Source: Zopfochytrium polystomum (taxonomy: Eukaryota > Chytridiomycota > Chytridiomycetes > Chytridiales > Chytridiaceae). Taken from it: DNA of 64,000 nt. Numbering within the stretch: the first letter of the stretch is position 1; each line of letters begins with the position of its first letter. Location of the stretch: NCBI GenBank assembly GCA_025765615.1, contig JAIVFJ010000214.1:1-64000 (forward strand). The letters are read 5' to 3'. Shown piece by piece: positions 11,966 through 64,000 of this stretch. The notes beneath the pieces are model-generated. The model did not search any database and was not told where the DNA came from. It saw nothing but the letters and a program-made list of their open reading frames with translations. A program made the translations under genes and the position numbers.

Positions 11966-12076
11966 GGGGGATGGGGGACCTGTCCCATCCCTCAAGTGAA
12001 TTATTGTTTCCAATACAATCATCACTCCTCTCAGTTCCTTGTCTGCCTTGTCCTGTCCTGCCCTGTTCCTGACATC

Positions 12077-12087
12077 ATAATTCACTT
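12077..12087 (+). other. primer-binding site complementary to the RNA 5' end (self-priming)
   Basis: ATAATTCACTT, two bases inside the left LTR, is the exact reverse complement of AAGTGAATTAT at 11994-12004 in the same LTR, just downstream of the TATA box. In Tf1/sushi-type elements reverse transcription is primed by the first 11 nt of the element's own RNA, not by a tRNA. The position and length here match that scheme. Confidence 0.75.
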
Positions 12088-12114
12088 CACCCTCTCCTAC
12101 TACTCTCTGCCATC

Positions 12115-13038
12115 ATGTCTGACCCAAACAACATCTTCCCTGATGCAACTGCCTTCCAAGCCTTGATGGACCAATTGCAAGCCCTTTCAAGACAGACACA
12201 CCAACTTCAAGAACAAGTCCTTCACCAGCAGCACCAGCTTCAACAACAACTTCACCAAAAAGAACATCAAGCTCTTCCCCTGCCCCAAGCCAACCAAGCA
12301 AGAGAGCCCAAGGTTCCCAGCCCTGACAAGTTCACTGGGCTGGCCAAAGACCTTAGGAACTTCATGGCCACTGTGGAGAATGTCATCCTTCTCCAACCTT
12401 CAAGATTTCCAAGTGAGCAAGTCAAGGTTCTTTTCACAAGCACCCTCCTGTCTGGTCAAGCTCAATCATGGTACAGATCTCTCCCAAGCACACCCACCAC
12501 CCTGCAAGAGCTCTGGGAGGGGCTGGAAGCTACCTTTGGTGACCCCTACGCATCTTGGACAGCAAGATCCAAGCTCAAGCATATCAAGCAAGGAAAGCAA
12601 TCTTGTGTGGCCTACACCAACCAATTCAAGCAACTAGCCAGAGACTCTGGATACAATGATGCAGCTCTGATGGAGCTGTACCATGATGGTCTCCATGAGT
12701 CTATCCAAGACATGCTCTCCCAGTCTCTGCACATCCCTGAGACCTTGGAAGAGTACATTCTCCTTGCCATCAAGATTGACAACAGACTCTACTCCAAGAG
12801 GCTGAAGCAAAGACAAGTAGGAACTACATCAAGACCTACCCCAGTTCCTCAAGCTCTTACAGTTCCTGAACCCATGCAAGTGGATGCAGTTGAGACACTT
12901 CCTAAGGGTCCTCTGAGCCAAGAGGAGAAAACAAGGAGGGCCCAGCAGGGACTGTGTTTTTACTGTGGCTCCAAGGAGCATGCTGTCAAGGACTGCCCAA
13001 GGAAGAAGCACCCAAACTCCCAGGTCCAGGCTCACTGA
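12115..13038 (+). CDS. gag: retrotransposon Gag (copy 1)
   Basis: The product is 307 residues. Residues ~15-60 form a Gln/His-rich helical (coiled-coil-like) stretch. A retrotransposon capsid region follows, with motifs such as SWYRSL and ELWEGLEATFGDP. Near the C-terminus a CCHC zinc knuckle (C-x2-C-x4-H-x4-C, CFYCGSKEHAVKDC) would bind RNA. The ATG at 12115 is 41 bp after the LTR. Gag should form the virus-like particle that packages the RNA. The gene is nearly identical to the copy 2 gag. The pol frame overlaps its end in the -1 register. Confidence 0.95.
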   Translation: MSDPNNIFPDATAFQALMDQLQALSRQTHQLQEQVLHQQHQLQQQLHQKEHQALPLPQANQAREPKVPSPDKFTGLAKDLRNFMATVENVILLQPSRFPSEQVKVLFTSTLLSGQAQSWYRSLPSTPTTLQELWEGLEATFGDPYASWTARSKLKHIKQGKQSCVAYTNQFKQLARDSGYNDAALMELYHDGLHESIQDMLSQSLHIPETLEEYILLAIKIDNRLYSKRLKQRQVGTTSRPTPVPQALTVPEPMQVDAVETLPKGPLSQEEKTRRAQQGLCFYCGSKEHAVKDCPRKKHPNSQVQAH

Positions 13039-14549
13039 GGGGCAATTCCCTGGACCCTCCTCCAAGCTGCCCCTGTTTCATCACCACCACCAGCACCACA
13101 AACACCTCAGATTCCAAGCCCCACCAACTCACCATGGATGTCAAGATTCAACTCTCACCCAAGTCAACCATCACAACCAAGGCCCTTATAGACTCTGGAT
13201 CATCCTGCAACATCATTGATGCCACCCTTGCCAAGTCTTGTGCCATTCCTACAATCAAGAAATCCACACCCCTCAAGGTCCACTTTGCCAATCATGCTCT
13301 GTTCAAGGAAATCAGCCATGAAACCAAGCTAAACCTCCACATCCAAGACTTTCCACCATCCATGGTCAATCTGGAAGTATTGGATCTTGGCTCACCCACA
13401 TTCTCTGTCATCCTGGGATTACCATGGCTGCAAGCCCAGAACCCTGCCATTGATTGGGTCACTGGTCAAGTCCAACCTCCACCAATTGGAACAGTCACCC
13501 AAAACTCAAGTCAAGCCCCCAAGTCTCATGCTCTCAAGCCCTTGATTCAAGGTTCTCAGCCTAGTATCCAAGGTCAACGACAAATGACAGCTCCAGTATC
13601 AGCCTGCAGCTCACAGATCCGAGCCAAGATTCAAGTTTCACAGTTCACAGTTCATAGTCAAGATTCCAGTACAGCTCATAGAGCTCACAGTCATGGCCAA
13701 GTCTGTAGTTCACAGAACCCACAGTCAAAGCTTCAAGTACCACAGTTCACAGTCCAAATTCAAGATTCAAGCTCCACAGCTCACAGTCTTTGCCAAGAGC
13801 AAAACCCTCAGTCAAAGATTCAAGAATCACAGTTCCCAGTCAAGATTTCATGCCCCACCGCTGATGAGCGCAGAAGGACAGACCTTGCACCTGAAGGGGG
13901 AGATGGTTTCACCCCACCATCCAAGACACACCTTTCCTTGCTTCCTGACAGTGTGTGGGCCTATGCTATTTCCAAGGACCCCAAGCCTCACAAGATTCAA
14001 ATCAGCCAAGAAGAGGAAAAACTTGAGATACTCAAGACAAGGCATGATGCAGCAACAGCTGGACACCCAGGAGAGCACAAGACATATGAGCTTGTTTCCA
14101 GAGACTTTTACTGGCCGGGCATAAGGAAGAACTTGCAGACCAAAAGACCAAGTCCCAAGCTAGACAACCTCAAGTTGGGACCTTTCAAGATCTTGGAGCA
14201 AATCAATCCAGTCACCTTCAAGCTGGATCTCCCTGCATCCATGAAGATCCACCCAGTTTTCCATGTCAGCCTTTTGGAGAAGTTTGTGGCCAATTCCATT
14301 CCAGGCAGAGTTGTTCCTCCTCCTCCTCCAGTTGAGGTGGAAGGTGAAGAGGAATTTGAGGTTGAACAAATCTTGGATGCTAAGTGGTTTGGAAGGACAC
14401 TCAAGTTCCTTGTTAAGTGGAAAGGTTACTCAGATGCTGACAACACCTGGGAACCTGAGTCAAACCTCACTCACTGCCAAGACCTTCTGCTCAAGTTCAA
14501 GACCAGGTACCCCACCAAGTTGCAGAAGAGGCCTAAAAGGGGGAGATGA
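12906..14549 (+). CDS. pol: deleted Pol: protease plus chromodomain (copy 1)
   Basis: The frame is open from 12906, overlaps gag by 133 nt in the -1 register, and stops at 14549, one base before the right LTR. It keeps an aspartic protease (IDSGSSCNIID near 13186-13215), a linker of degenerate Gln/Ser-rich repeats, the first half of the integrase zinc finger (HPGEHKTYEL, FYWPGIRK near 14065-14126), a GPF-type motif (LGPFKILEQI), and a full chromodomain (ILDAKWFGRTLKFLVKWKGY, then NTWEPE). Reverse transcriptase, RNase H and the integrase D,D,E core are absent. Junctions lie near 13860-13885 and 14120-14130. An AGGAAG stretch shared by both edges suggests microhomology at the second. Expression would need frameshifting from gag. 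Confidence 0.85.
   Translation, partial: GSSEPRGENKEGPAGTVFLLWLQGACCQGLPKEEAPKLPGPGSLRGNSLDPPPSCPCFITTTSTTNTSDSKPHQLTMDVKIQLSPKSTITTKALIDSGSSCNIIDATLAKSCAIPTIKKSTPLKVHFANHALFKEISHETKLNLHIQDFPPSMVNLEVLDLGSPTFSVILGLPWLQAQNPAIDWVTGQVQPPPIGTVTQNSSQAPKSHALKPLIQGSQPSIQGQRQMTAPVSACSSQIRAKIQVSQFTVHSQDSSTAHRAHSHGQVCSSQNPQSKLQVPQFTVQIQDSSSTAHSLCQEQNPQSKIQESQFPVKISCPTADERRRTDLAPEGGDGFTPPSKTHLSLLPDSVWAYAISKDPKPHKIQISQEEEKLEILKTRHDAATAGHPGEHKTYELVSRDFYWPGIRKNLQTKRPSPKLDNLKLGPFKILEQINPVTFKLDLPASMKIHPVFHVSLLEKFVANSIPGRVVPPPPPVEVEGEEEFEVEQILDAKWFGRTLKFLVKWKGYSDADNTWEPESNLTHCQDLLLKFKTRYPTKLQKRPKRGR
14534..14549 (+). other. polypurine tract (copy 1)
   Basis: A purine-rich run (AAAAGGGGGAGATGA) directly precedes the right LTR, as expected for the plus-strand primer. 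It overlaps the end of the pol frame. Confidence 0.7.
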
Positions 14550-25440: not shown

Positions 25441-26156
25441 GTAAATGCAGCTGCGACGCGCCGACGAGCGAATCAATCGCAGAGGTTTTTTTTTTTCTCG
25501 AAGTTTCTGTGAACCAATACAGAAGGCGGAACCCATACTAACCTCAGCCTATATTAGTTTACTCTCCTTCGCACCGCAGTAGCGATGGCGAAGCCAACAG
25601 CGACATCATGACATCACCGCTACAATCAGAGAGTATTCCGCCGTCGTTTAGTCCAAGCACCACCGAAAAGACTGCTCCGCTAGCATCGGCCTATATCACT
25701 GATAGTTCGAGCCTCATTGATCTACTCCATCCCTCAAGCGACAGCCGATCGTGGCGCACGAAAAATCGTCGATCCAGTCTGCTCTGCCGCAAAATTCTGG
25801 TGGCTTTTGGAAAAGGTGGGGCGTCCAAACTTCACTAAAAATTTTGTAGTGGTGGGGCGCCGAGCGCAGCCAAGATAGCTTCTGTTATCAAAATGGGACA
25901 GAAATACAGTATAGAAATGAAAGACGAAAAGAGCCTCTTGTTCATCGAACTATGACCTGCAATTGTAGTTCTGTTTTTATCTCATTTGCGTAAACCAATT
26001 CAAACTCCGACAGTGGGTGGCGCGGAGGGAGGTGATAAAAATAGACCTCCTGCAAGGAAACTTTGGTTCTCGCATGGTCGGACAGAGCCCGATAAACCGG
26101 TGGATTCTTTTTTTTTTTCGCACGAAACCTCCGAAAGCCAACAAACCTCTTCACCC
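25441..26156. other. upstream region of the chitin deacetylase
   Basis: One small frame (25608-25838, 76 residues, Ser/Thr-rich start) has an ATG but no recognisable family. The rest is presumed 5' flank of the downstream gene. Confidence 0.3.
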
Positions 26157-27732
26157 ATGCGGAAAAGCTGCATCTTCGCTGGCGTCCTCGTGTCAACAAC
26201 GATCTCGGCGATAGCGGCCGCAGCGGACGCGCCAGTCGCGGCGTTGGGGCAAAGCCACTGGCAGCGGCTTCATCCTCCTTTCTTTCGCCGCCGACGGACC
26301 GATGGCGGAGCACCCATGAACGTCGTTGGACAGGCCGACCACCGACGGGTCCGGAGGGCCACCCTCACAAACGACGGATCGTGCGGTGGAAACGGCCTGA
26401 GCTGTCCTCCTGGCTACTGCTGCTCCGTGTACGGCTACTGTGGACAAACCAACGATTTTTGCGGTGCAGGCTGTCAGTCGAACTTTGGTCAGTGCGGGAA
26501 CGGAACGACGAGCGCCGGCGCCGGGACAACATCGCCCTCCTCGAGTTTAGGGGCCACTACGTACACAAAGGACGGTTCTTGCGGAGGAAGCAACAATTGG
26601 AGCTGCTATCCAGGCTACTGCTGCTCACAGTACGGCTTCTGCGGGCAGGCCATTGCGTACTGCGGAGCGGGTTGTCAGGCCAGCTTTGGACAGTGCGGGG
26701 ATGTCACAACTTCCAGCAGCACTTCGAATGCTGGGGGTGCGGGCACGAAATCGGTTCTCTCCACGACTCAGGCGGCCGCGGCTTCGGCATCGACTTCGTC
26801 TTCTGCTGATACGCAACCCACTTTTATTTCGACAACTGGCCGATGTGGTCAAGCATACGGACTCTGTCCCCTCGTAAGCATGTCTTTCTGATCAAAGCGT
26901 TCAATTGTGGAGATTAATGAGATATTTGAAGGGCCTTTGCTGCAGTCAATACGGCTACTGCGGCAGCTCCGCCTTCAACTGCAACCTCTCCTCCGGCTGC
27001 AACCCACTGTACGGCGACTGCGCGGGACTTCCCCAAGACCCGAATATCGCAGTTGTCTACAGCTGCACAGTTCCCGGGACCGTCGCTATTACCTTTGACG
27101 ACGGGCCCTACACGACCATGTCGACCATCGCGAACGCCTTCACAGGCGCCGGAGGGCATACCACCTTCTTTCTGAACGGCCAAAACCGCGGCTGCATCTA
27201 TGACCACGCCGCTGACGTCCTCGCGGCCTACCAGGCGGGGCACCAGATCGCCGCGCACACCTGGTCGCACCCAAACATCACCACGTTAACCGCCGCGGCG
27301 CTGCGCAGCGAGATCACGCGGCTCGACGACGCGATCAAGAGCATCACGGGCGCGCGGCCGCTCTTCTTCCGGCCGCCGCTGGGCGCATACAACAGGACGT
27401 CGGCGGACATTGTCGCGGCGGCGGGGTACACGCACATGGTGCTTTGGGACGTGACGCCGCAGGAGCTGTCGAACGGGAACGCGGGCAGCACGGCGGCGGA
27501 CGTGGTCAACGAGAAGGCGACGTACAATTCGGTAGATATGACGACTCCGCATATTTTCCTGCAGCACGGTACGCAGGCGCTGACGGTGTCGGACATGGTG
27601 CCGTTTATTATCGATTGGGCGATCGGGCGTAATCTGTCGATGGTCACGGTGGCGGAGTGCCTGGGCGGCGTGGCGATGTATCGAGATGTTGGGCTGCCAA
27701 GCGCGCGTGATGCCAGTTGGACGTGCTCGTAA
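26157..27732 (+). CDS. chitin deacetylase (CE4) with three chitin-binding CBM18 modules
   Basis: Exons 26157-26873 and 26932-27732 (58-bp intron, phase 0) encode 505 residues. A signal peptide (residues ~1-24, LVSTTISAIAAAADA) is followed by two complete hevein-type CBM18 modules, each with the CCS.YG(Y/F)CG core. A third module (CCSQYGYCGSSAFNC) is split by the intron. The NodB domain starts near residue 285: TFDDGP (~293), HTWSH, FRPPLGAYN, then LQHGT near the end. These supply the metal-binding D-H-H, the catalytic Asp and the C-terminal His. It should deacetylate chitin to chitosan at the wall. CBM18-deacetylase fusions are common in chytrids. It converges with the synthase gene to its right. 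Confidence 0.92.
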
Positions 27733-28778: not shown

Positions 28779-31700
28779 CTATGAAGAAACCCAGAAGTCG
28801 CTAAACACAACGCCCGGCTGGAACCACGGCACGATGGTTCCCGCAAACAGCATGGCCGCCGTCACCACCGTGCCCAGCACTACGTCGAGGCAGTTGCGCA
28901 GCTTGATGGACGACCCGTACGTCCGGTCGTCCTCTGCCAGCGGCTTGGGCGGGTTTAGCGTGTGGTAAATGTACCTTACAAGCACCAGCGTCTCTTGCAG
29001 CGCGTACGTCAGAATCACAATGTCCAGCGCCAGTGGCCGCGGCGGCGATTGCGGGGGCTCTGGGAACACCGCGAAGGGGTCCGGCCTTGCGGGAGAAAGT
29101 ATCCGGTTAAGATTTTTGGGGAGGGGAAAAAAAGGGTAGGCCTGCATTGAATTTGAATACTACTCACTCTCTCGGCACGAATCCGTGGTTCTTCGACGCC
29201 CGCCAGATTGTGAAGGCCGAGCCGCCGAGCAGTGTAACCACCAGCAGTGCGTGGAACCAGCAGTGCGGCCATATACCTGTCGCCTTCTTCTTCTTCTTTG
29301 CGGCCCCCGTCACTGTCGCCTTGAACGTCTTCTGCTTGGCAAATGTCAACCCGTTCGTGATGAATGCATCTAGCAGATTGGCCAGCAGGAACCCGCCGCG
29401 TTGCAGGTCGCACCACATGTTCCACGACAGCGACCACCGGGGCGTCACGATAAGGAGAATCGACTGTAACAGCGTGAACGGGTAAAAGAAGAGTGCGATC
29501 ACCGGGATCCGATTCGAGAATAGGTTGAAGTCAGTCCACAAGTAGATGATCAGGAAGCATGTTGCGAGGAGACGGAGAATCGGGTACACAGCGTAGTTGA
29601 TGAATGTGAGCAGGTAGGTGATTGCTGTGCGCGGGAGAGGCGTGCATTTTTACTGTTTAGTGTGGCGAAACCCAAGAGGTGTGGACTCAACAAAAAGGAA
29701 ACGGGAAGGAAGGATACAGTACCTCTCCATCCCTTCATGCCACCAGATCCGAGACGCGCTTGGATGACTTGAAGCCCGCCGACCTGCCAGCGGGTCTGCT
29801 GACGACGCACCTCCTCGGCAGTCTGCGGGGTCGTGCCAAAGGCGAGGTTGCGGCGAAGGTACCTCGACTTCCAGCCCGCCCGGAAGAGGTCGAGGGCCAT
29901 CAGGTAGTCCTCACAGACTGAATCTGTGGGCATACCACCGATCGAGAGAAGGGCCTCGCGACGAACTAATGAAGTTTTGTGGTGTTTGGTTGGAAAGGAG
30001 AAGACACTTTAGCAAACTCGAAGACACCAACAATTATTCAACTGGGGAGAGACACGAATTAAACTCAACTCATAAAGTTCGTTCCGACACACGGCACGGC
30101 GCCGCGCGCGTCCAAGCTGGGCAACACGCGGTCGTAAAAGATTTGCGACCGCACGCAGAACGGGTCGCCCTCCAGCACGTCGCGGTACCGCTGCGGCGAC
30201 TGCACCCACCCGACCATCGGGTCGTCCAACAGGTTCGCCGCAAGCACGACCAGGGCCTCCTGCACGGGAATCATGTCGCAGTCAAGCACGAGAATCAGGT
30301 CTCCCGTCGTGACACTCAGCGCGTTGTTAATGTTGCCGGCCTTTGCGTGCCGGTTGTTGTCGCGAGTAATGTGTCGCACTACCCGCTCGTCGCCCCACGA
30401 CGCGCACAGCGCCGCCTTCTCAGTCGTCGGCGAGTCGTCCAGCACGTTAATCTGCACCCGCGAAACGAACGGCGGAACCAGCAGCTCGCAGCACGCCACC
30501 AGCGTCGCCTCCAGCGTTTCCACCGGCTCCTTGTAGCACGTCACGAAAACATCCACAGAGAACCGCCTCGATGCGTGGGCGGCTGTCAGCAAGCGCAGCG
30601 GCTCGGACAGCGTGATCTCTGTCCCCGCAACAGACGCCGCAGACGAGTTCGGGTCGCGCCGGCGCGGCGGCGCCGGCACCGCCGTGTCCCCGTTCGCCGA
30701 GGGCTCCCGTTGGATGCTATCGAAGCTTTCGTTCTCGTCTGGTGCGCTGGTCGGGGTCCTGTCGGCGTGCTCTTCGACCGTGAGCGACGGGAGTTCCTCC
30801 TCCTTTGAGAGTTCGCGCTCTTCGCCCTCCTCGTTCTCGTCTGTAAAGTCATACTCGCCGACGGCCGGGCCAAGAATGGGTTTTGGGATGGGTAAGTTGG
30901 CGATCGCCGTGAGCAGGTTCATCGAGTGGATCATGACCTCCACAAACAAGACGCAAATCTGCAGCCCGACTTCGACCGACGATACCGTCGAGGCAATGAG
31001 CACACTGCGCTGGAACGTGTACGCGACCAGCAGCAGCACGAGCAAGTGATGGACCGCCTTGTACGCGATCACACTCCAAACGGGACGGATAAACTCCTCC
31101 TCCACCGCCTCCGGGTTGACGCGCGCCGCCCAGATCCTGGCAGGCGTTTGGTTCATCTTGCGGATGCGCTCAGCCTCCATCACCGACCGTGGGCCACCCC
31201 ACGTTTTGCGCTTCATCGTGAAAACCGTGTAGACGTTGTAGAACGCATTCAGAATCGGCTGGCCGAGGAAGTACACCGGGAACCATGGAATGACTTCTGC
31301 CTGGCGGGTACCGAGCGCGGCCCAGATGACGATAAACCAGTTGAGTGTGACCAAGATCAGCAGGTTGATCTTTGCGACCGTCGAGACGCCCCAGAAGAGC
31401 AAGTTTAGCACCACCAACAGATCGATCATGCCACCGGCGAACCCGGCCATCAGTAGCGCCCGGTGGAACGTCACCAGTGGATGCCGACGCCACAGTCCAG
31501 CCGTCGACAAGTTGTGGATCTCGTTAGCAAGCATGCCCAGCGTCCATCGTCGACGCTGCTGGATCAGTACCATCAGCGTGTTCGGCACCTCTGTCGACGC
31601 ACGTCCGCCCAGACAGAAGCCGACAACCCCCTTGCCGCACCCGCGCGTCGCCTGCCGGTTCTCCGGGTCGCGGCTGCCGTGCATCTCGAGTAGGAACGTA

Positions 31701-34700
31701 AGCCACCGGTCCTCGCCGAGGTGCATCCGCCAGTACCCGTGCACAGACTTGTCGATTGGCTCGTCCGTCTCCATAGATCCGTCTTTGAATGCCGACCGCC
31801 CAGGGTATCCCGGGACGCCTTCAAAGTAGAGTGGGGCGACACGCGCGAGAGCGTCCATTCGGACGAGTGTGAGACAGCCGGAAAGACAGGTCGTCGTGCC
31901 GAAGAAGTCGTGGAATGTCTTTTCGAGAACCTGGATGCGCAGGTCTAAGCAGCGACCGCGAGGCGCCAACGTATGAGTTGATTTCAAAGAAGTAAATGGG
32001 AAGTACAAATCTACTTACACTCCGTGGCCTGCATAATCTCGAGCATGTTGCTCCCCTTTGTCCTGACGGTTGTCAGACCGGTCATGGCCTCGCACTGCTT
32101 TCTCCTGCTCATGTCGACCATCAACGCCTCGAGGGCATCATCAAACACGTTCATGTCCGAGTCCATAAACAGGATGAACTTTTCCAGTTCCCTGCCAGCC
32201 GACACTTCGTACATTTCGCGGATCTCCTCGGCCTTCTCGCGCGCAAGCAGCGCGCCGTAACCTTGCGCATGCCGCTTACCGCCGTGCGGGAACCGACAGA
32301 TGGTCACATGGACGCCATCAATCAGGCACTGCAGTCGATCCGGGTACGGCGGTGACTGCTTCGACAGGACTCCGCAGAACGCTTCGTACTCTTCAGTTTC
32401 GCGGTCGTCGTCAAACGCAACAATCACGTGCATCAGGTGCTTCGGGTATCTACGGGATTGAGGCGTAAGGGGGTGTCGATGTATGAACAGAAGAAATTAA
32501 TGAGGCCCTCACTTTAGGTTACAGATACTCTTTACGGTCCTTTGCAGCACGTCCGGCTCCTCGTTGTAGACTGGAATTACGGTGCAAACAATCCCGCGGT
32601 GGGCGTCGCCTTGTTCGTAGCTCTCCTCTCCGGCGCCCTTCTTGCCCTTTCCCCTCCTCCTCACTAACCCCCTCGTCAGGGTCGCGACGGGCACCTTGGG
32701 CTCCTCCTTGACCAGCTTCTTGCGCCAAACGGGCGTGATGCCATAGTAAAAGCAGTACCCGAGTCCAATCCAAAACTCGCAAAACACAATCACCGTGTTC
32801 AGCACCGACAGCCCCAGGAATCCGTAGAACCCGACGCTGGACAGGAACTCTTGCACCGCGCGCGTCCGCCAAAACATCGTCAGCCGGTACGCTCCGCCCG
32901 CCACGTCCGTCGCGTTCTGCGCACCAAGCACGTGCTCCGCCGCGCCAGGGAACGCAGAGTCACCGACGTTGACCCACAGCGACCCAGGGTCCAGCACGTA
33001 CGCACCAAGGTCGACGAACGGCTTGGCAAACACGAGGAGCACGAAGGCTTGCAGCAGGACGATCGCGGATGAGACCGTAAGGTTGAGGATGCGCGTCTTG
33101 CCCGGCTGTGCGCGTCGGTTCGTCGCTCGGTGCACGGCCAGAACTGATTGCATGACGAGCGTCACACCAAAGATGATTTGGAAGTACGAGATGCCGACAA
33201 TGATTGCGCCCGTAGTCGTCTGTGCAACGTTGATGGGGAGAGGCGGCCCCGTACCATTTTCAGTGGAGAGCTTCGCAAAGTAACTGGAGAGCTGGATGGA
33301 CGGGACTGAAGATGTGTGAAGGGAGGGATTGTGTTTTCCGTTAGCAAGAGAATACCCAATTAGCAATTCACAACATCAGAGAAGAGTTGCTTACGATCGT
33401 TGTATCGACTGATGGATGTTCCCAGGCAGGTCTCCATGTCGATGATGGTGAACTCACACAGCGGCACCTGCTGCACCATCTGCTCCAGAATGTCAGCGTT
33501 GGCGGGAACCAAGTCGTGGTGCAGCGAAATGATGCCCGGTGTGTTGTCCTTATCGTCGAACAGGTGGAGTCGACTGAACAGCGCACCAGGGTCCTCCGCA
33601 GACTTGTACACCATCATGGTGTCGCGTGAATCGAAACTCCAAGTGACGGGGATGTATCCGAAAGCCTGCGAATTTGAAGGTAGGAAATTTTTAGCTGAGT
33701 TTCGAGTCCATCCCCACACCCCTCCACGTACCTGTGCCACTGCCAGCGTCCTCTTATTGTAGTTGCCATAGGGCGACCTAAACAGCTTCGGCGCCACACC
33801 CGTTGCCGACGCAATCGCGACATGCGCCAAAGTCAAATCCGCAAACAGCTGCTCGTCCGACAGCGTCGTCAAATCCTTGTGATAGTACGTGTGGGCGCCG
33901 ACGACGTGGCCCTCCTGCACCGCGCGCCGCACGTACCGCGCGTAGGTCGGGTCCTCCAGGTTCTGCGCCGTCACGAAAAACGTGGCTGTCACATTGTACG
34001 CCTTGAGCACGTCCAGCACCCGCGGTGTGATGCTCGTCGGCCCGTCGTCGAACGTGAACGTGAATGTCCCGTTCACCACGCACTCGTTGGTCGGGATCGC
34101 CACGCAGCCTCCGCAGTCGAGCGGGCACGAGTGGCACGTCTCGGACCGCTGCTCGCATCGTCCGTCACCACATTGTCCGCCAGTCGCGGCGCTGAGCGCC
34201 GGCCGGAGCTGCTCAATCTTGTTTGTCATCCACGTCGAGAGCCGAGGGATTGTTTGCTTCACTAACACCTGCCGGCTGAGGAGGCCGGGGAGTGCGGCAT
34301 TGTCTAGGACAGCGAAGGAGCGGGCGTGAAATTGATGAGACGGAATGCTTTGGCTGCGGACAGAGGCAGAGACATAGACTCACAGATAAGCTTCGGCTCG
34401 GTGTAGAGACGCTTCAGCCTGGTGTCGACATACTTGTCACGAACGGTTGGGCCACCTTGAAGCAACGTGCAGTGAGCGTACGAGCAAACAGGCGTAAGGT
34501 AACAACCATCCCAAAAACCGCTCCGCAACTCACCGACAAGCGCCCCAGGCAGAACATACTTGTTGTTCACGGGGTACGAAATGTTCAAGCCGCCGTGCAT
34601 GAGCATGCTGCACGGGTTCTTCGGAGACTGCGCGTCTATACCCGTGATGAACGTCACGTTGGCCGGGTTGTCGCCGAGCACGTAGTTGAGCTGGGACGTC

Positions 34701-36392
34701 GCAAACTCTGACGCCACCGTCGACAGCGCAGAGTCGCTCGTAGCAGTGTACTTGCTAATAACGTAGCCGAGGAGCGCTACGTTCATGCTGTCGGGAGCGG
34801 AAGTAAACTCGTAGTCTTGTTGCAAGGCCAGGTCGCGAATGAGGAGGCCACCTTGTTTTGGAGGTCGTATCAGATGTGAAAGCGAAACCAACCAAACAAA
34901 ACGCACGACCCACCTTTTGTAAAGAACGTGTACTCATCCCCCGGGTACGAAATGTTCTTGAACATGCCCTTGACACGGTTCCCGTAAAATGAGTTCATTC
35001 CGTCGGGCAGCGTCGTGGCCATCAGCACGTCCACGCCACGGTCCTTCATGTCCCAGTTGAAGCGGTAGTCCGGGATCCCGGAAAAGTGCGCGTCCTTCTC
35101 CGCTAGCCACGCCGTCTGCCGCGCTAGGGCAATGTCTTTGTAGCTCGTACCGTTCGTGCCCACCCCTGTGCCGTCCGTAGCTTTGTGCAGCCAGGCCGCG
35201 CCCCACGCCAGATCGTCAAGGTACCCCCACGGCGAGTAGATGAACGCGCCGTTCTCCGGCGGAATGTTCTTGTAGGCGAGCCCGCGGTACGTGTCGGCAT
35301 ATTGGAAGGCAGTTTTGGCCTTTTCGAGCAGCTGGTTCGAGTCTTGATGGACGAAGGAGGACGGCAGGGGAAAAAAATCGAGGAGTGACTTAGTTTACAC
35401 AGGAAGAGATTCACAATGCGGAAGTAGAGAACGAATGAAAAGATTCAGCAACGAACAAGTTTGGTTGACAGTCCGGAACAGGATGGACGCGGCCGCGAGT
35501 GCCGCGGCGGTCTCGCCGGCGGCGTCAGAGGCAGGAAGCTCCGTGCCCGCGGGGAATGTCGCGCGGAGGTTGTACGAAGCAATGTTAGCTGGGTTGTTCC
35601 ACGCAGATGCACGCTCCTTGGACGCAACCTGATTTCCGAGAAAGGCAAATACCGTTTACGGTTAACATTTTTATAAAACGCAGCTGCAATTTTTGGATCG
35701 ACCAACCCAAAAATATTAAGAAAAACAGAGAAGGTCGAGCAAGGAGAGCAACGAGTGCTGATCCCCACCTGCACCACAATCGCCGTGTTGTTCGGCACGC
35801 AGTTCATGAGGTAGTCCGTGCCCCACTTGATTGTGTCCAGCAAGTGCGCCGTTTGGTTAGCGGCTGCGAAGCCCTCGGGGAACTCGATGCCACCCCACGA
35901 GAGCGTCGTCAGCGTGAAAGCCAGCGGCAGCGTGTACTTGACGACCGACGTGCCCGAGTCGAAGTACCCGCCGACCAGGTCGAGCCCGACGTCCTTGCCG
36001 TCATCCAGCGCCGAGTCCATCATCATCGGGAACGCCTGGTGGATGGATGACGGCAGCCGCCCCGACCGCTGCGTGTCGAAGAACGTCAGCGCTTGCGTCA
36101 GGATCGACGCGTAGTCCGGCGAAACGCTGGACCCCAGCGCCGAGGCTGCGACGGCGGACGGCGAGGCAGAGATGGAGGCGGCCGTGGATGAGGAGGTGGT
36201 CACAACGGAACGGGTGGTAGTAGAGAAGGACGAGGACGAGGTCAAAGCGGTTGCCGATGACATGATGCTCAGGCTATCTGAAGCGGTTGCGCCGTCGGCG
36301 GCAGTGGTGAATGCCAGTGCGGCGACGGCTGCTACGGTGGTGGTGGTGCGGAAGGCATTGGCGAGGGACGCCAACGCCGTGGAGAGGTCCAT
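28779..36392 (-). CDS. GH9 + polysaccharide deacetylase + chitin-synthase GT2 + cellulose-synthase-like GT2 fusion
   Basis: Exons, right to left: 36392-35769, 35628-35457, 35342-34914, 34851-34534, 34455-34384, 34303-33732, 33665-33395, 33305-32513, 32449-32019, 31944-30070, 29965-29723, 29624-29168, 29085-28779; 2187 residues. Introns are 62-140 bp and all phases agree. After a signal-like N-terminus and Ser/Thr-rich linker comes GH9 (~98-550: QRSGRLP, DLVGGYFDSG, QLNYVLGDNP, YTEPKLIYNAAL). A Cys-rich CGDGRC segment precedes NodB deacetylase (TFDDGP ~622, HTYYH ~675, FRSPYG ~711, LHHD ~777). Three membrane spans lead to GT2-1 (VIPVYNEE ~1066, FMDSDM ~1180, LGEDRW ~1302, QRRRW ~1356). More spans lead to GT2-2 (VTCYKEP ~1693, LDDS, DCDM ~1781, CED ~1871, QQTRW ~1904) and about five final spans. 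GH9 and NodB would face outward and both GT2 domains the cytosol. The GH9 catalytic-base Asp is replaced by Thr. Confidence 0.85.
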
Positions 36393-37508: not shown

Positions 37509-38384
37509 ATGAGCCAGCAGCAGAATCAGCATCAGGAAGGGAATCAACCCAGCCCTTCCGTGGAAAGCCCCACCGCCGCCGAGGTCACGCCCGTCAACGC
37601 AGCGTCGCCCGTGGCGTGGACCAACAACTCCGCCCACGTCATGTTCGACGTCTACGACAGCGAGGACGGCACCAGCGACCTCGGTGAAGGCGTCCTTGGC
37701 ACCAACGGGGCCTCCGGCACCGCCCAAGTCAAGCCCACCACCGACGCCACCGCTACCGCCGCCGCGAATACCGCTACCGCCGCCGCCTCTTTGCAGAGAG
37801 CTGACAGCCGTGCCGCCGCCGGCCCGCAAGCCTTGTCGTCGTCGATCCTGAAAAACTACGGCAGCACGCGCAACGACGGCGGCGGCGGCGGGGGTGCAAA
37901 GACCCCGCCGCTCAGCCGCTCGGCGATGGGGTCGACCGCCAGCCTCAGCGCGCTGGGCGGCGGCGGCGGGCGGCCGCAGCCGCCGCCGCCAATGTCGCGG
38001 TCGAACAACCAGTCGCGGAGCACGCTGTCCAGCGCCGGGCCGTCGATGGGGTTTCTCCGCGAGGACCCGGCCGCCGGCGGCAGCGGCGGTGGCGGCAGCC
38101 GAGCACCCAGTTTCGCAGGGGTCGGTGGTCGGCCGTCGATTAACCCGTCGATTCGGTCCGTCCCGAGCGCCATGTTTAGGAGCTTTGTGTCGCACTCGTC
38201 GTTTGTGCTACATCCTGACGAGGGCGGGCAGCAGCTTTCGGATGGCGGGTCGAGCAAAGGGAGTAACCCTTCTTCGAGGGGCTTGTCGTCGGTTGATCGG
38301 TTGAGGGCTTGTAAGTAGTCCATTGTGGCGTCTGGCTGTTGTTGTTGCGGCGAGTTGTCTCTGATCCAAATATGCGTGTTCGCC

Positions 38385-38416
<32 letters not shown>

Positions 38417-39563
38417 CTTCCCTTGCACTTCAACTTAACAGCGAAGAACGGCCGGGCCTTTTTCTTCCTCCTTGCCTTCCTCACGATCGCCGCTCTTGTA
38501 AGAAAGCTTTGCCCTTTTTGGTACCCACAGCGAGCAAACTGACTATGTTTTTTTCCCCCCACTTTCCCTCTCCATCCAGTCCGGCACCTTGACCGTCTAC
38601 TTCATCCGCTACTCCAGCAGCGCGGCCTCAACGCGCCAAAAGCCGCTGGACCTGACCATCAAGCTGGACTCGCGCCTGCACAAGTCCCTCTACGGCCTGG
38701 ACTACACGCCGCCCTTTGGCGGGCAATACGACCAAGGCTGCTACATCACGCAGCAGGACGTCCTCAACCACGTCAAGCTGATGTCGCAGCTGACGACGCG
38801 CATCCGGCTGTACGGCATGGACTGCCTCGTGGCGGACTTTACCCTGAACGCGGTGCGGCTGCTCAACGTCAACCTCAGCGTGGTGCTCACGCTGTGGGAG
38901 GACAACGACATTGCGATGATCACGCGGCAGCGCAAGGAGCTGTACCGCATCGTGGAAAAGTACAAGGGGCAAAACATCTCGTACATCTCGGTCGGCAACG
39001 AGGTGCTCTTGCGGGCGGCGGACAAGGGCGACGAGGCGGAGGTGTTTATGGGCAAGGAGCTGGACCAGACGCGGGCGTGGCTCAAGAGCAACGGGTACGG
39101 GCACATTTCGGTGGTGACGACGGACGTGGCGGACAGCTGGTCGGCGTACCCGGACATTATCAACCACTCGGACGAGGCGTGGGGCAACGTGCACCCGTTT
39201 TTCGCGGGCGTGCTGCCGGAGACGGGGTGGGACTTTGCGATAAAGTCGCTCAACTCGGAGGGCACGGGGCTCAACTGGATTTCGAACAAGACGGGCAAGA
39301 CCGGCATGATCAGCGAGATCGGGTGGCCGACGGCCCCGCTCAACGAGAGCTACCAGGCCAGTGTGCCGACGGTTCCCAACATGAACACGTTCCTCAACCT
39401 GTGGGTGTGCAGGGCGAACCAGGCGGGCATTAGGTACTTTTGGTTCGAGGCGTTCGACTGCCCGTGGAAAGAGGCGTTCAGTATTCGTGAGGCGAGCTGG
39501 GGGCTGTTTGATCGGAACTTGAACTTAAAGGACGGCGTCGTCATACCGCAGTGTGATGTGTGA
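37509..39563 (+). CDS. membrane-anchored GH17 beta-1,3-glucanase-type protein
   Basis: Exons 37509-38310, 38442-38497 and 38580-39563 encode 613 residues. Residues 1-270 are a low-complexity cytosolic N-terminus rich in Ser, Gly, Ala and Pro. A single membrane span (AFFFLLAFLTIAAL, ~273-295), split by an intron, makes a type II membrane protein. The outer domain is GH17: GLDYTPPFG, a TRIRLYGMDC strand, ISVGNEVL (acid/base Glu, ~427) and ISEIGWPT (nucleophile Glu, ~531). Family members cut or transglycosylate beta-1,3-glucan in the wall. Similar layouts occur in fungal Scw/Bgl2-like membrane glucanases. Intron 1 carries a 28-base T run near its acceptor. Divergent from the wall-polymer synthase fusion, which suggests co-regulation. 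Confidence 0.88.
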
Positions 39564-59124: not shown

Positions 59125-59477
59125 TGTTATGAATCACCCTCTGGAAACCTCTGGAACCTTCTAGAACATTCCTTCATGGAACCTTCTGGAACCTTCTGGA
59201 ACCTTCTAGAACATTCCTTCATGGAACCTTGTGGAACCTTCTGGAACCTTCTTTGCTTTCCTGACTTGTCTTGTTGTCATTGGTATCATTGGTATCATTG
59301 TATTACTAATTGCTCTTTCTGGAACTTTCTTGGAGTCTTGACAAGGAACACTCTCAAAAGGTATAAAAGGGGGATGGGGGACCTGTCCCATCCCTCAAGT
59401 GAATTATTGTTTCCAATACAATCATCACTCCTCTCAGTTCCTTGTCTGCCTTGTCCTGTCCTGCCCTGTTCCTGACA
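59125..59477 (+). repeat. left LTR (copy 2)
   Basis: 353 bp, TG...CA, with the heat-shock-like arrays at 59153-59172, 59178-59217 and 59223-59252 and the same TATA box. It differs from the copy 1 LTRs at one visible base in CTTTCTT(T/G)GAG. Confidence 0.96.
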
Positions 59478-59479
59478 TC

Positions 59480-59490
59480 ATAATTCACTT
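59480..59490 (+). other. self-priming site (copy 2)
   Basis: ATAATTCACTT, complementary to the predicted RNA start AAGTGAATTAT at 59397-59407, as in copy 1. Confidence 0.75.
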
Positions 59491-59517
59491 CACCCTCTCC
59501 CACTACTCTCTGCCATC

Positions 59518-60441
59518 ATGTCTGACCCAAACAACACCTTCCCTGATGCAACTGCCTTCCAAGCCTTGATGGACCAATTACAAGCCCTTTCAAGACAGAC
59601 ACACCAACTTCAAGAACAAGTCCTTCACCAGCAGCACCAGCTTCAACAACAACTTCACCAACAAGAACATCAAGCTCTTCCCCTGCCTCAAGCCAACCAA
59701 GCAAGAGAGCCCAAGGTTCCCAGCCCTGACAAGTTCACTGGGCTGGCCAAAGACCTTAGGAACTTCATGGCCACTGTGGAGAATGTCATCCTTCTCCAAC
59801 CTTCAAGATTTCCCAGTGAGCAAGTCAAGGTTCTTTTCACAAGCACCCTCCTGTCTGGTCAAGCTCAATCATGGTACAGATCTCTCCCAAGCACACCCAC
59901 CACCCTGCAAGAGCTCTGGGAGGGGCTGGAAGCTACCTTTGGAGACCCCTACGCATCTTGGACAGCAAGATCCAAGCTCAAGCATATCAAGCAAGGAAAG
60001 CAATCTTGTGTGGCCTACACCAACCAATTCAAGCAACTAGCCAGAGACTCTGGATACAATGATGCAGCTCTGATGGAGCTGTACCATGATGGTCTCCATG
60101 AGTCTATCCAAGACATGCTCTCCCAGTCTCTGCACATCCCTGAGACCTTGGAAGAGTACATTCTCCTTGCCATCAAGATTGACAACAGACTCTACTCCAA
60201 GAGGCTGAAGCAAAGACAAGTAGGAACTACATCAAGACCTACCCCAGTTCCTCAAGCTCTTACAGTTCCTGAACCCATGCAAGTGGATGCAGTTGAGACA
60301 CTTCCTAAGGGTCCTCTGAGCCAAGAGGAGAAAACAAGGAGGGCCCAGCAGGGACTGTGTTTTTACTGTGGCTCCAAGGAGCATGCTGTCAAGGACTGCC
60401 CAAGGAAGAAGCACCCAAACTCCCAGGTCCAGGCTCACTGA
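59518..60441 (+). CDS. gag: retrotransposon Gag (copy 2)
   Basis: 307 residues, differing from copy 1 Gag at only a few positions (for example NNTFP against NNIFP near the start). It has the same helical Gln/His-rich N-terminus, capsid region and CCHC knuckle (CFYCGSKEHAVKDC). Confidence 0.95.
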   Translation: MSDPNNTFPDATAFQALMDQLQALSRQTHQLQEQVLHQQHQLQQQLHQQEHQALPLPQANQAREPKVPSPDKFTGLAKDLRNFMATVENVILLQPSRFPSEQVKVLFTSTLLSGQAQSWYRSLPSTPTTLQELWEGLEATFGDPYASWTARSKLKHIKQGKQSCVAYTNQFKQLARDSGYNDAALMELYHDGLHESIQDMLSQSLHIPETLEEYILLAIKIDNRLYSKRLKQRQVGTTSRPTPVPQALTVPEPMQVDAVETLPKGPLSQEEKTRRAQQGLCFYCGSKEHAVKDCPRKKHPNSQVQAH

Positions 60442-63400
60442 GGGGCAATTCCCTGGACCCTCCTCCAAGCTGCCCCTGTTTCATCACCACCACCAGCACC
60501 ACAAACACCTCAGATTCCAAGCCCCACCAACTCACCATGGATGTCAAGATTCAACTCTCACCCAAGTCAACCATCACAACCAAGGCCCTTATAGACTCTG
60601 GATCATCCTGCAACATCATTGATGCCACCCTTGCCAAGTCTTGTGCCATTCCTACGATCAAGAAATCCACACCCCTCAAGGTCCACTTTGCCAATCATGC
60701 TCTGTTCAAGGAAATCAGCCATGAAACCAAGCTAAACCTCCACATCCAAGACTTTCCACCATCCATGGTCAATCTGGAAGTATTGGATCTTGGCTCACCC
60801 ACATTCTCTGTCATCCTGGGATTACCATGGCTGCAAGCCCAGAACCCTGACATTGATTGGGTCACTGGTCAAGTCCAACCTCCACCAATTGGAACAGTCA
60901 CCCAAAACTCAAGTCAAGCCCCCAAGTCTCATGCTCTCAAGCCCTTGATTCAAGATTCACAGCCAGCCAAGACTCAAGTTCCACAGTTCACAGTTCACAG
61001 TCAAGATTCAAGTAGAGCTCATAGAGCTCACAGTCATGGCCATGACTCTTGTTCACAGAACCCACAGTCAAAGATTCAAGTACCACAGTTCACAGTCCAC
61101 ATTCAAGATTCAAGTTCCACAGCTCACAGTCTTTGCCAAGAACAGAACTCTCAGTCAAAGATTCAAGAATCACAGTTCCCAGTCAAGAATTCAAGCCCCA
61201 CTGCTGAGGAGCACGACAACCTGGACCCATCAGACCTTTTGCTGGCATCCAAGCTACCAAAAGAATATCTCCCTTATGCTGATGTGTTTTCCAAGACCAA
61301 GGCAGACCTGCTACCAGCTCAGAGGCCTTATGACTGTGAAATCCCACTCAAGGATGAAACTTGCAGCCCACCTTTCAAGCCACTGTACCACCTCTCTCCA
61401 CCAGAAGCCAAGGCCCTCCAAGAATACATTGAAGAAATGCTGAACAAGGGATTCATCCAACCTTCCAAGTCACCAGCTGGAGCTCCCATCTTTTTTGTCA
61501 AGAAGAAGGATGGGGGACTGAGACCCTGTGTGGACTACAGAGATCTCAATGAGATGACAGTCAAGAACCGCTATCCACTGCCTCTCATCTCTGAATTACT
61601 GGACAAACTGAGCCATGCAAGGATATTTTCCAAGATTGACCTCAGAGGTGCCTACAATTTGGTCAGAATTAAGCCCCAGGATCAATGGAAGACTGCCTTC
61701 AGATGCAAATACGGTCACTTTGAGTACTTGGTTATGCCCTTTGGACTTACCAATGCTCCAGCTATTTTCCAAGGCATGATGAATGACATCTTCAGGGATA
61801 TTCTGGACCTTTTTGTCATTGTCTACCTGGATGATATCCTGGTATTTTCATCTGACACTGCAAGCCATATGGGACATGTCAAGACTGTCTTGGAGAGACT
61901 CAGACAGCATCACCTCTATGCAAAGCTGGAGAAGTGTGAATTCCACAAGACCTCCATTGAGTTTTTGGGGTTCATTGTGTCTGACAAAGGGATCTCCATG
62001 GCACCAGACAAGATCCAAACTATTCTTGAATGGAAGGCTCCAAATTCCATCAAGGATGTTCAAAGCTTCCTTGGATTTTGCAACTTCTACAGAACCTTCA
62101 TTGCCAACTATTCTGCCATAGCCAAGCCTCTCACTGATCTCACCAAGAAGACCACCAAGTTTGAATGGACCCCAGCAGCAGAGCAAGCCTGGCTAGCTCT
62201 TAAGACAGCAACCACAAGTGCACCACTCCTTAAGCATGTGGATCCCTTGCTTCCCTTCACCTTGGAAACTGATGCCTCAGACTATGCCCTTGGCGCTGTT
62301 CTGTCCCAGCCAAGCTCTCAGGAACCCTCTGCTCCTCTGCATCCAGTGGCATATTACTCCAGGAAGCTGAACAGTGCTGAGTGTAACTACACAGTCCATG
62401 ACAAGGAGTTGCTTGCAATTGTGGAAGCATTCAAATTCTGGAGACACTACTTGGCTGGTTCTAAAGGCATCTCTGTCTATTCTGATCACAAGAACCTCAC
62501 CTTCTTCAGGGCAAGGAGGTTGCTCAAGCAGAGGCATGCCAGGTGGGCTGAACTGCTCTCTGAGTATGACTTTAAGCTGTGCTATTCTCCTGGCCACCTT
62601 AACACTGTGGCTGATGCCCTGTCAAGAAGAACAGACCTTGCACCTGAAGGGGGAGATGGTTTCACCCCACCATCCAAGACACACCTTTCATTGCTTCCTG
62701 ACAGTGTGTGGGCCCATGCTATTTCCAAGGACCCCAAGCCTCACAAGATTCAAATCAGCCAAGAAGAGGAAAAACTTGAGATACTCAAGACAAGGCATGA
62801 TGCAGCAACAGCTGGACACCCAGGAGAGCACAAGACATATGAGCTTGTTTCCAGAGACTTCTACTGGCCAGGCATGAGGAAGTACATCAAGAACTATGTC
62901 AGCAGCTGTGAAACCTGTCAAAGAAACAAATCCAGCAGACACAAGCCCTATGGACTTCTGGAGCCCCTCCCAATTGCCATCAGCCCTTGGTCATCAATAT
63001 CCATGGACTTCATTGTGAAACTGCCCCCATCCCATGGATTTGACTCTATCCTTGTTGTCATCTGCAGAAGGACAAAGTTGGCCCATTTCATCCCCTGCAC
63101 TGAGAATATAGATGCACAAGGAACAGCAGACCTGTTTTTGCAGCACATATTCAGGCTCCATGGGCTGCCTCAGTCAATCGTCAGTGACAGAGGACCACAG
63201 TTCAGATCTCAATTTTGGAAAGCACTCACAGCAGCCCTTGGAATCAAGTCTCAACTGTCAACTGCTTATCACCCTCAGACTGATGGACAAACAGAAAGAA
63301 CAAACCAGACTCTGGAGCAGTATTTGAGGTGCTATGTCAGCTACCAACAGGATGATTGGCCCACCCTCCTTCCACTGGCAGAATTTGCTCTCAACAATTC

Positions 63401-64000
63401 TCTCCACTCAAGCACCCAGCTATCTCCTTTCTTTGCAACCTATGGCTTCAATCCAAGAGGAGATCTTCTGGGACAAGAGACCCTATCCAATGTCCAAGCT
63501 CCTGCTGCGGCTTCACACTTACATAAGCTCAAGATCATCAACTCCTTCCTGGACTCCACCCTGAAGCAAGCCCAAGAAGATGCCTCAAGATTTGCCAACA
63601 CTCACAGAATGGACCATGACCTTGCTGTGGGTCAGCAAGTTTGGCTTCTGAGGAAGAACTTGCAGACCAAAAGACCAAGTCCCAAGCTAGACAACCTCAA
63701 GTTGGGTCCTTTCAAGATCTTGGAGCAAATCAATCCAGTCACCTTCAAGCTGGATCTCCCTGCATCCATGAAGATCCACCCAGTTTTCCATGTCAGCCTT
63801 TTAGAGAAGTTTGTGGCCAATTCCATTCCAGGCAGAGTTGTTCCTCCTCCTCCTCCAGTTGAGGTAGAAGGTGAAGAGGAATTTGAGGTTGAACAAATCT
63901 TGGATGCCAAGTGGTTTGGAAGAACACTCAAGTTCCTTGTTAAGTGGAAAGGTTACTCAGATGCTGACAACACCTGGGAGCCTGAGTCAAACCTCACTCA
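60309..64000 (+). CDS. pol: retrotransposon Pol: protease, RT, RNase H, integrase, chromodomain (3' cut by window)
   Basis: The -1 frame is open from 60309 to the window end with no stop seen, overlapping gag by 133 nt. In order: aspartic protease (IDSGSSCNIID, ~60590), a Gln/Ser repeat linker (~60950-61200), reverse transcriptase (KKKDGGLRPCVDYRDLN, MPFGLTNAP, catalytic YLDD at 61824-61835), RNase H (LETDASDYALGAVLSQ, ~62265), integrase zinc finger (HPGEHKTYEL, CETCQRN), D,D,E core (SMDFIVKLP, SDRGPQF, then the Glu region), GPF motif (LGPFKILEQI, ~63703) and a chromodomain from ~63880 cut at base 64000. Chromodomain integrases target marked chromatin. All catalytic signatures appear intact. 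Confidence 0.95.

Follow-up and report, generated by a model that had tools for sequence, protein, structure and literature searches.

The window analysed here is the whole 64,000-nucleotide stretch at positions 1 to 64,000 of contig JAIVFJ010000214.1 (C214), from the 80 Mb assembly of the chytrid Zopfochytrium polystomum. On its minus strand lies a gene (28779..36392) whose 2187-residue protein joins four modules in one chain, namely a glycoside hydrolase family 9 (GH9)-like domain, a CE4/NodB polysaccharide deacetylase domain and two different glycosyltransferase family 2 (GT2) domains. We call the latter GT2-1, which is chitin-synthase-like, and GT2-2, which is cellulose-synthase-like. That this is one gene and one four-module protein, as an initial annotation had claimed, is confirmed at the level of sequence by the exon joins, by other loci in the genome and by two other chytrids. 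Two different processive-type GT2s, a deacetylase and a cellulase-derived domain are thus kept together in one protein by at least three chytrid genera.

One gene and its relatives

We rebuilt the gene by hand from an ATG at 36392 to a stop at 28779, obtaining 13 exons with 0 internal stops and twelve introns (140, 114, 62, 78, 80, 66, 89, 63, 74, 104, 98 and 82 bp), all GT..AG. A spliced aligner gave identical exons; its query was the hand-built model itself, so that this tests the splice sites and not the protein. The 13 exons, 12 introns of 62-140 bp and single 2187-residue frame of the initial annotation were reproduced exactly. Exon 1 (35769..36392) encodes the N-terminus, a Ser/Thr-rich linker and the start of the GH9-like domain, which continues through exons 2 (35457..35628), 3 (34914..35342), 4 (34534..34851) and 5 (34384..34455), the last holding the retained catalytic acid Glu534. 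The end of GH9, a Cys-rich mini-module and the first half of the deacetylase share exon 6 (33732..34303), and the second half of the deacetylase lies in exon 7 (33395..33665). Three membrane segments and the start of GT2-1 follow in exon 8 (32513..33305), with the DSD motif of GT2-1 in exon 9 (32019..32449). Exon 10 (30070..31944) then runs from the end of GT2-1 (EDR, QRRRW) through membrane segments and an acidic linker into the start of GT2-2, whose CED and QQTRW motifs are in exon 11 (29723..29965). C-terminal membrane segments make up exons 12 (29168..29624) and 13 (28779..29085), the latter ending in the stop. Once spliced, the domains cover residues 93-550 (GH9-like, catalytic base lost; 34269..36116), 611-815 (deacetylase; 33408..34088), 1056-1380 (GT2-1; 31487..32598) and 1690-1935 (GT2-2; 29620..30559), all on the minus strand.

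The joins between modules agree with the initial annotation in all but one respect. Both GT2 domains reach into the uninterrupted exon 10 (1875 bp), and the join between the deacetylase and GT2-1 is an 89-bp intron. The 80-bp intron placed between GH9 and the deacetylase is also present, but the actual join is inside exon 6, because the end of GH9 (YNAALPGLL) comes after this intron, in the same uninterrupted exon 34303-33732 as the start of the deacetylase. Between the two sits the Cys-rich module (CGDGRC...CHSCPLDCGGC, residues 583-605), which is present in four loci of the genome and in one chytrid relative (P0002, below) and found no Pfam match at E 0.01. The intron at the deacetylase-GT2 join occurs at the same place in three other loci of the genome. 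Were it retained, it would bring an in-frame stop into the copies of the window, C1 and C17, and would stay open in C378. P0001, the model that NCBI gives for the C17 copy, also spans this join.

The Z. polystomum genome contains four loci of the four-module family, on C214 (the window), C1, C17 and C378. An alignment guided by the window protein recovered the same 13 exons in the C1 copy, its introns agreeing in position and phase in 12/12 cases but differing in length. The first nine exons of the C378 copy can be seen before the contig ends. The C17 copy keeps the module order, with deacetylase and GT2s intact and three frame changes in GH9 exons 3 and 4 that represent either module decay in one copy or an assembly error; its NCBI model, P0001, begins inside the deacetylase and continues through both GT2s. 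As the same arrangement is found at three more loci and in two other chytrids, it is no splicing accident.

Comparison of the window and C1 copies shows strong purifying selection on each of the four domains. The proportion of nonsynonymous differences (pN) is 0.069 for GH9, 0.060 for the deacetylase, 0.067 for GT2-1 and 0.059 for GT2-2, and the synonymous proportion (pS) is 0.65-0.84, the synonymous distance being saturated for two of the four domains. For GH9 this comparison gives a dN/dS of 0.047, and that with C378 gives 0.032 for GH9 and 0.043 for the deacetylase. Far more variation than in the domains is seen at the N-terminus and in the linker at residues 1591-1689. Six-frame searches of the genome, whose counts are lower bounds, found GH9 confined to this family (12 pieces at four places). 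Relatives of GT2-2 amounted to nine pieces in three family loci and one weak piece on C9, and those of GT2-1 to 24 pieces, 11 in the four family loci and 13 others at 29-38% identity. The contig pairs C47/C144 and C7/C343 have identical chitin-synthase scores and are perhaps uncollapsed haplotypes or duplicated contigs.

A search for four-module orthologues, which the initial annotation had proposed, found them in two other chytrids. The whole protein was scored against 7983 candidates and gave 22 matches. Besides P0001 and one fungal chitin synthase, these were two four-module chytrid proteins and 18 proteins carrying bacterial cellulose synthase domains. The two chytrid proteins are P0002 from Chytridiales sp. 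JEL 0842 (NCBI 'Endoglucanase', 1968 aa) and P0003 from Podochytrium sp. JEL0797 (HDU98_007486, 2845 aa), both known as predicted proteins. They contain all four modules in the order of the window protein, at 45-56% identity over the aligned pieces. The P0002 model breaks off midway through the deacetylase and resumes after the first membrane segment. That of P0003 is without the start of the deacetylase and carries a homeodomain and a GH17 domain in front, which are probably at least partly a merged neighbour; the homeodomain, at residues 133-175, is itself probably a neighbouring gene merged by annotation. A profile of three sequences gave 20 matches (P0002, one chitin synthase and 18 proteins combining GH9 with other modules, those with a named source being bacterial) and missed P0003, though P0003 was in the query, so its sensitivity is limited. 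GT2-2 gave 283 matches, and among the 120 listed one Podochytrium fragment (P0042) is followed mostly by proteins with cellulose synthase domains, one of those listed coming from a eukaryote transcriptome. No relatives of GT2-1 in bacteria, archaea or viruses were confirmed with peptide patterns, which reach close relatives only.

The initial annotation knew of no described protein with all four modules. We found no paper describing this architecture in the open-access literature searched, but two such proteins (P0002 and P0003) were already in NCBI, and this literature yielded no paper on either of them. The same literature held nothing on point for hydrolase-deacetylase-GT2 fusions or for fused cellulase-synthase proteins. 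Fusions of GH18, NodB and GT2 modules exist in bacteria and form no part of the evidence here. Across 218 fungal genomes, a published survey counted 82 GH9 domains, >80% of them in single-domain proteins, and the part of it drawn on here names no GH9-GT2 fusion (PMC5428031).

Synthase and deacetylase domains and their topology

Profiles, matches in the Protein Data Bank (PDB) and a tree bore out the assignment of GT2-1 as chitin-synthase-like and GT2-2 as cellulose-synthase-like. PF03142 matches GT2-1 in 4/4 family members, with 96 bits for the window copy (cut-off 27), and the 6/6 PDB sequences matched by a GT2-1 profile are chitin synthases. The motifs DD, DSD, GEDR and QRRRW are present in each of the five sequences that extend far enough; the C378 copy stops short of GEDR. 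In a tree of 28 rows, GT2-1 groups with eight chitin synthases against 15 rows on the cellulose synthase (CesA) side (100/100), on its own long branch; the tree was midpoint-rooted, with no HAS or NodC rows. A published criterion for a chitin synthase is monophyly with the known divisions, with HAS/NodC as outgroup (PMC5122149). No match to myosin or cytochrome b5 was found in the exon pieces scanned.

The best solved relatives of GT2-2 are bacterial cellulose synthase structures, at E 1e-29 by sequence and 1e-35 by profile. It carries the motif set of processive GT2s of BcsA type (DD, DCD, ED, QQTRW), and the tree places it on the CesA side with support of 100/100. PilZ (PF07238) had no match in any exon piece of the gene or in P0003.

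The deacetylase matches PF01522 at 116.6 bits (cut-off 23.1), and its best PDB matches are an Aspergillus niger protein (7bly) and a chitin deacetylase (2y8u). The initial assignment of this domain stands, since the sequence keeps TFDDGP, HTYYH and RSPYGNYN, in which we take TFDDGP, HTYYH and RSPYG to be the metal and active-site motifs of CE4.

Topology was drawn from hydropathy only. In the model, GT2-1 is preceded by three membrane segments, and the number between the GT2s was set at four by our own choice. The model is consistent with GH9 and deacetylase lying outside the cell and both GT2s in the cytosol. Four sequons (263, 329, 395 and 950) are conserved in 6/6 sequences and all sit in parts predicted to be outside, which comprise the first 850 residues and the loop 914-976. 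The short loop 874-894 is positively charged.

What the protein may make

The reading that we tentatively prefer, at slightly less than an even chance, is that of a twin synthase, in which a chitin-type GT2 with an external deacetylase would yield chitosan beside a BcsA-type GT2 that would make beta-glucan. A further link to glucan is seen next to the gene. A GH17 protein with a membrane-anchor exon is encoded on the plus strand (37509..39563, start codon inferred; intron 38498-38579; motifs GNE and SEIGWP; long low-complexity N-terminus), head-to-head with the fusion gene and ~1.1 kb away. At the same place in C378 a GH17 gene is 96% identical over 324 residues. The Podochytrium protein P0003 has the orthologous anchor and GH17 ahead of its GH9, in a model that starts with a homeodomain and may merge neighbours. 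We count this arrangement, found at 2/4 loci and in the Podochytrium model, as a glucan link.

A number of results weigh against this reading. Product specificity cannot be read from GT2 motifs, and PF03142 also matches GT2s that are not chitin synthases (PMC5122149), so that the match alone is no proof of a chitin synthase. Long branches meet at the split between GT2-2 and GT2-1, as the tree program warned, and the nine CesA rows are supported as one group at only 67/52. GT2-2 is below the TIGR03030 cut-off of 699.1, at 160.1 bits for the window slice, 194.9 for P0002 and 186.5 for P0003. The genome also has other candidate sources of glucan. PF02364, the FKS1-type beta-1,3-glucan synthase profile, matches 17 pieces on C2 and C444 (best E 8.9e-57), with PF14288 (FKS1_dom1) beside both sites (C2:466258-470932 and C444:31500-36169); these mark putative FKS1-type genes. 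They lower the odds of the twin-synthase reading and of its fuller form given below. Other GT2 genes with PF13632 are present too (36 pieces). The PF13632 proteins at four loci outside the family (C9, C10, C23 and C136) have no strong NCBIfam name and resemble CelA far less than GT2-2 does, their best CelA score being 20 bits; a PDB comparison of one of them gave no match. No GH17 gene lies near the C1 copy within the 28.7 kb examined, nor near the C17 copy within 25.3 kb. The dN/dS of GH9 is higher with the C17 copy, at 0.086 and 0.094, this being the GH9 with three frame changes. As to topology, sequons 1372 and 1492 are predicted to be cytosolic and are kept in three copies of the genome, and the N-terminus is poorly conserved and has no clear signal peptide (hydropathy maximum 1.29). 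We infer the export of GH9 and deacetylase; a further 5' exon outside the present gene model may encode the signal for it.

A rather doubtful alternative is that both GT2s make a polymer of N-acetylglucosamine (GlcNAc), or that one of them is regulatory, which would leave a chitin/chitosan synthase only. The fused deacetylase suits GlcNAc, GT2-2 has weak matches to PgaC and NodC models, and the FKS1-type matches can serve glucan. However, the best models for GT2-2 are CelA and it groups with the cellulose synthases at 100/100, and both GH9 and GH17 are glucan families.

In the GH9 domain, PF00759 matched three reading-frame pieces at 118.6, 64.3 and 60.7 bits (cut-off 27.7), which places the domain in the GH9 fold family. 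The closest solved relative is Thermobifida fusca E4 (E 3e-66). In T. fusca E4 the catalytic acids are Asp55, Asp58 and Glu424, and Asp58 was identified as the base by azide rescue (PMC4071793); for an exo-acting GH9 member the first Asp of the pair was postulated as base (PMC6096475). We aligned 24 sequences, six from chytrids (four from this genome) and 18 other GH9s. The equivalent of Asp58 is replaced by T, S or A in 6/6 chytrid sequences and in 0/18 others; the motif reads DAGD in 18/18 of the latter and DSGT (four, all from this genome), DSGS (one) or DTAA (one) in the chytrids. The chytrid sequences (6/6) have likewise lost a PH(H/S) stretch and the Asp in DYNA. Asp55 and Glu424 equivalents are kept in 6/6, and the full catalytic set is therefore incomplete. 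As the base is lost in all six, hydrolysis is unlikely, and the trimming of polymer assumed by the initial annotation is not supported. The domain is conserved at a dN/dS of 0.03-0.05 (C1, C378) yet has no base, and is thus best read as a module that probably binds or guides chains instead of cutting them.

It is unlikely that the domain is still an active hydrolase of the KORRIGAN type, editing glucan as it is made, with another residue in place of the lost base. Such an activity would accord with the two kept acids, the close match to E4, the purifying selection on GH9 and the description of KORRIGAN as part of the cellulose synthesis complex of plants (PMC10334666). The exchange of Asp58 in every chytrid sequence, where all 18 others have Asp, and the further loss of the PH(H/S) stretch and the DYNA Asp argue against it.

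Under the twin-synthase reading, GT2-1 would polymerise GlcNAc in the cytosol and extrude the product through a membrane bundle of its own, and the deacetylase on the outer face would strip acetyl groups from this chain, giving chitosan. GT2-2, also cytosolic and with its own bundle, would make beta-glucan. Because the genome also has FKS1-type matches for beta-1,3-glucan, this is more likely to be a beta-1,4 or mixed-linkage glucan. The external GH9-like domain, non-hydrolytic, would bind or guide the emerging beta-1,4-linked chains, and two adjacent chains would thus be deposited by one protein. In its full form, a single polypeptide would extrude two polymers together as a ready-made composite, one of them chitin/chitosan and the other a beta-glucan that is cellulose-like or of mixed linkage, with the cellulase-derived domain as chain guide; we regard this fuller proposal as doubtful.

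It is quite improbable that the two GT2s alternate to build one heteropolymer, in the manner of two-domain copolymerases such as chondroitin polymerase. Two different GT2 domains do lie in one chain, close relatives of each are found in the genome only at this family's loci, and chondroitin synthase is among the weakest PDB matches of GT2-2. However, QxxRW and a separate membrane bundle are present in each GT2, the mark of processive chain-extruding synthases, and we therefore favour two chains over one copolymer as regards the mixed chitin/glucan that the initial annotation had suggested.

That separate adjacent genes were wrongly joined is very unlikely, and we reject it. The gene structure is predicted from genomic sequence, and P0003, with its homeodomain start, shows that chytrid models can merge neighbours. 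However, the GH9-deacetylase and GT2-GT2 joins are inside single exons, and the order is the same in four loci (in C378 up to the contig end) and two other genera. A plant-biomass-degrading endoglucanase, as the NCBI name of P0002 and a survey that assigns the GH9 of early-diverging fungi to nutrition (PMC8778642) would have it, is hardly credible and was rejected, given the fusion to two membrane GT2 synthases and the lost base.

Surroundings and comparison with known systems

Just past the 3' end of the fusion gene, frames on the plus strand (25956-27732) match PF00187 (chitin-binding, two stretches) and PF01522 and are probably a second wall-modifying gene. Two pairs of long plus-strand frames (12073-14546 and 59476-63998), both beginning MSDPNN..., are probably two copies of one retroelement. 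Across ~20 kb (4222-24540) there are eight tRNA genes by ARAGORN and six tRNAs by Rfam.

Should the two GT2s each make a different polymer, the synthesis of two wall polymers would be coupled in a single protein with the processing of one of them. GH9 of early-diverging fungi has been counted as cellulase (PMC6690862, PMC8778642), and counts of 'GH9 endoglucanases' in chytrid genomes may include wall-building proteins.

Rhizoclosmatium globosum is reported to contain beta-glucan with no apparent FKS1 homologue, by a process called uncharacterised, and FKS1 is given as absent from it and from Batrachochytrium dendrobatidis (PMC7341943); another source states that 1,3-beta-glucan was not found in chytrids (PMC6299283). 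The fusion protein could be the unidentified beta-glucan synthase in chytrids without FKS1 that keep it. This link to the unexplained glucan of FKS1-less chytrids (PMC7341943) concerns other species. In contrast to R. globosum, Z. polystomum has FKS1-type matches, so GT2-2 is not needed as a stand-in; an FKS1-replacing role here is unlikely, and this candidate was dropped because C2 and C444 carry matches to both PF02364 and PF14288.

R. globosum also offers a partial parallel. It has 28 GT2 domains in 27 genes, and one protein, ORY48846, carries two GT2 domains like the window protein; it is placed under the chitin synthase 1 family (PMC7341943). When compared with fungal chitin synthases of division 2 (PF03142), GT2-1 has matching motifs, profile and tree side but branches apart from the eight chitin synthases. 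With bacterial BcsA/CelA, GT2-2 aligns over ~310 residues including the catalytic motifs, but differs in lacking a PilZ match, in its score (160 bits against 699) and in its fusion to a second synthase. A parallel for the GH9-like domain is tunicate CesA-GH6, in which a GT2 synthase is fused to a cellulase domain without a catalytic Asp that 'seems functionless' (PMC10334666). That protein differs from ours in the GH family, in the C-terminal position of the domain and in having one GT2, with no deacetylase described in the part of the source drawn on here (PMC10334666). The GH9 part would be a second case, after tunicate CesA-GH6, of a conserved cellulase domain without a catalytic residue inside a synthase.

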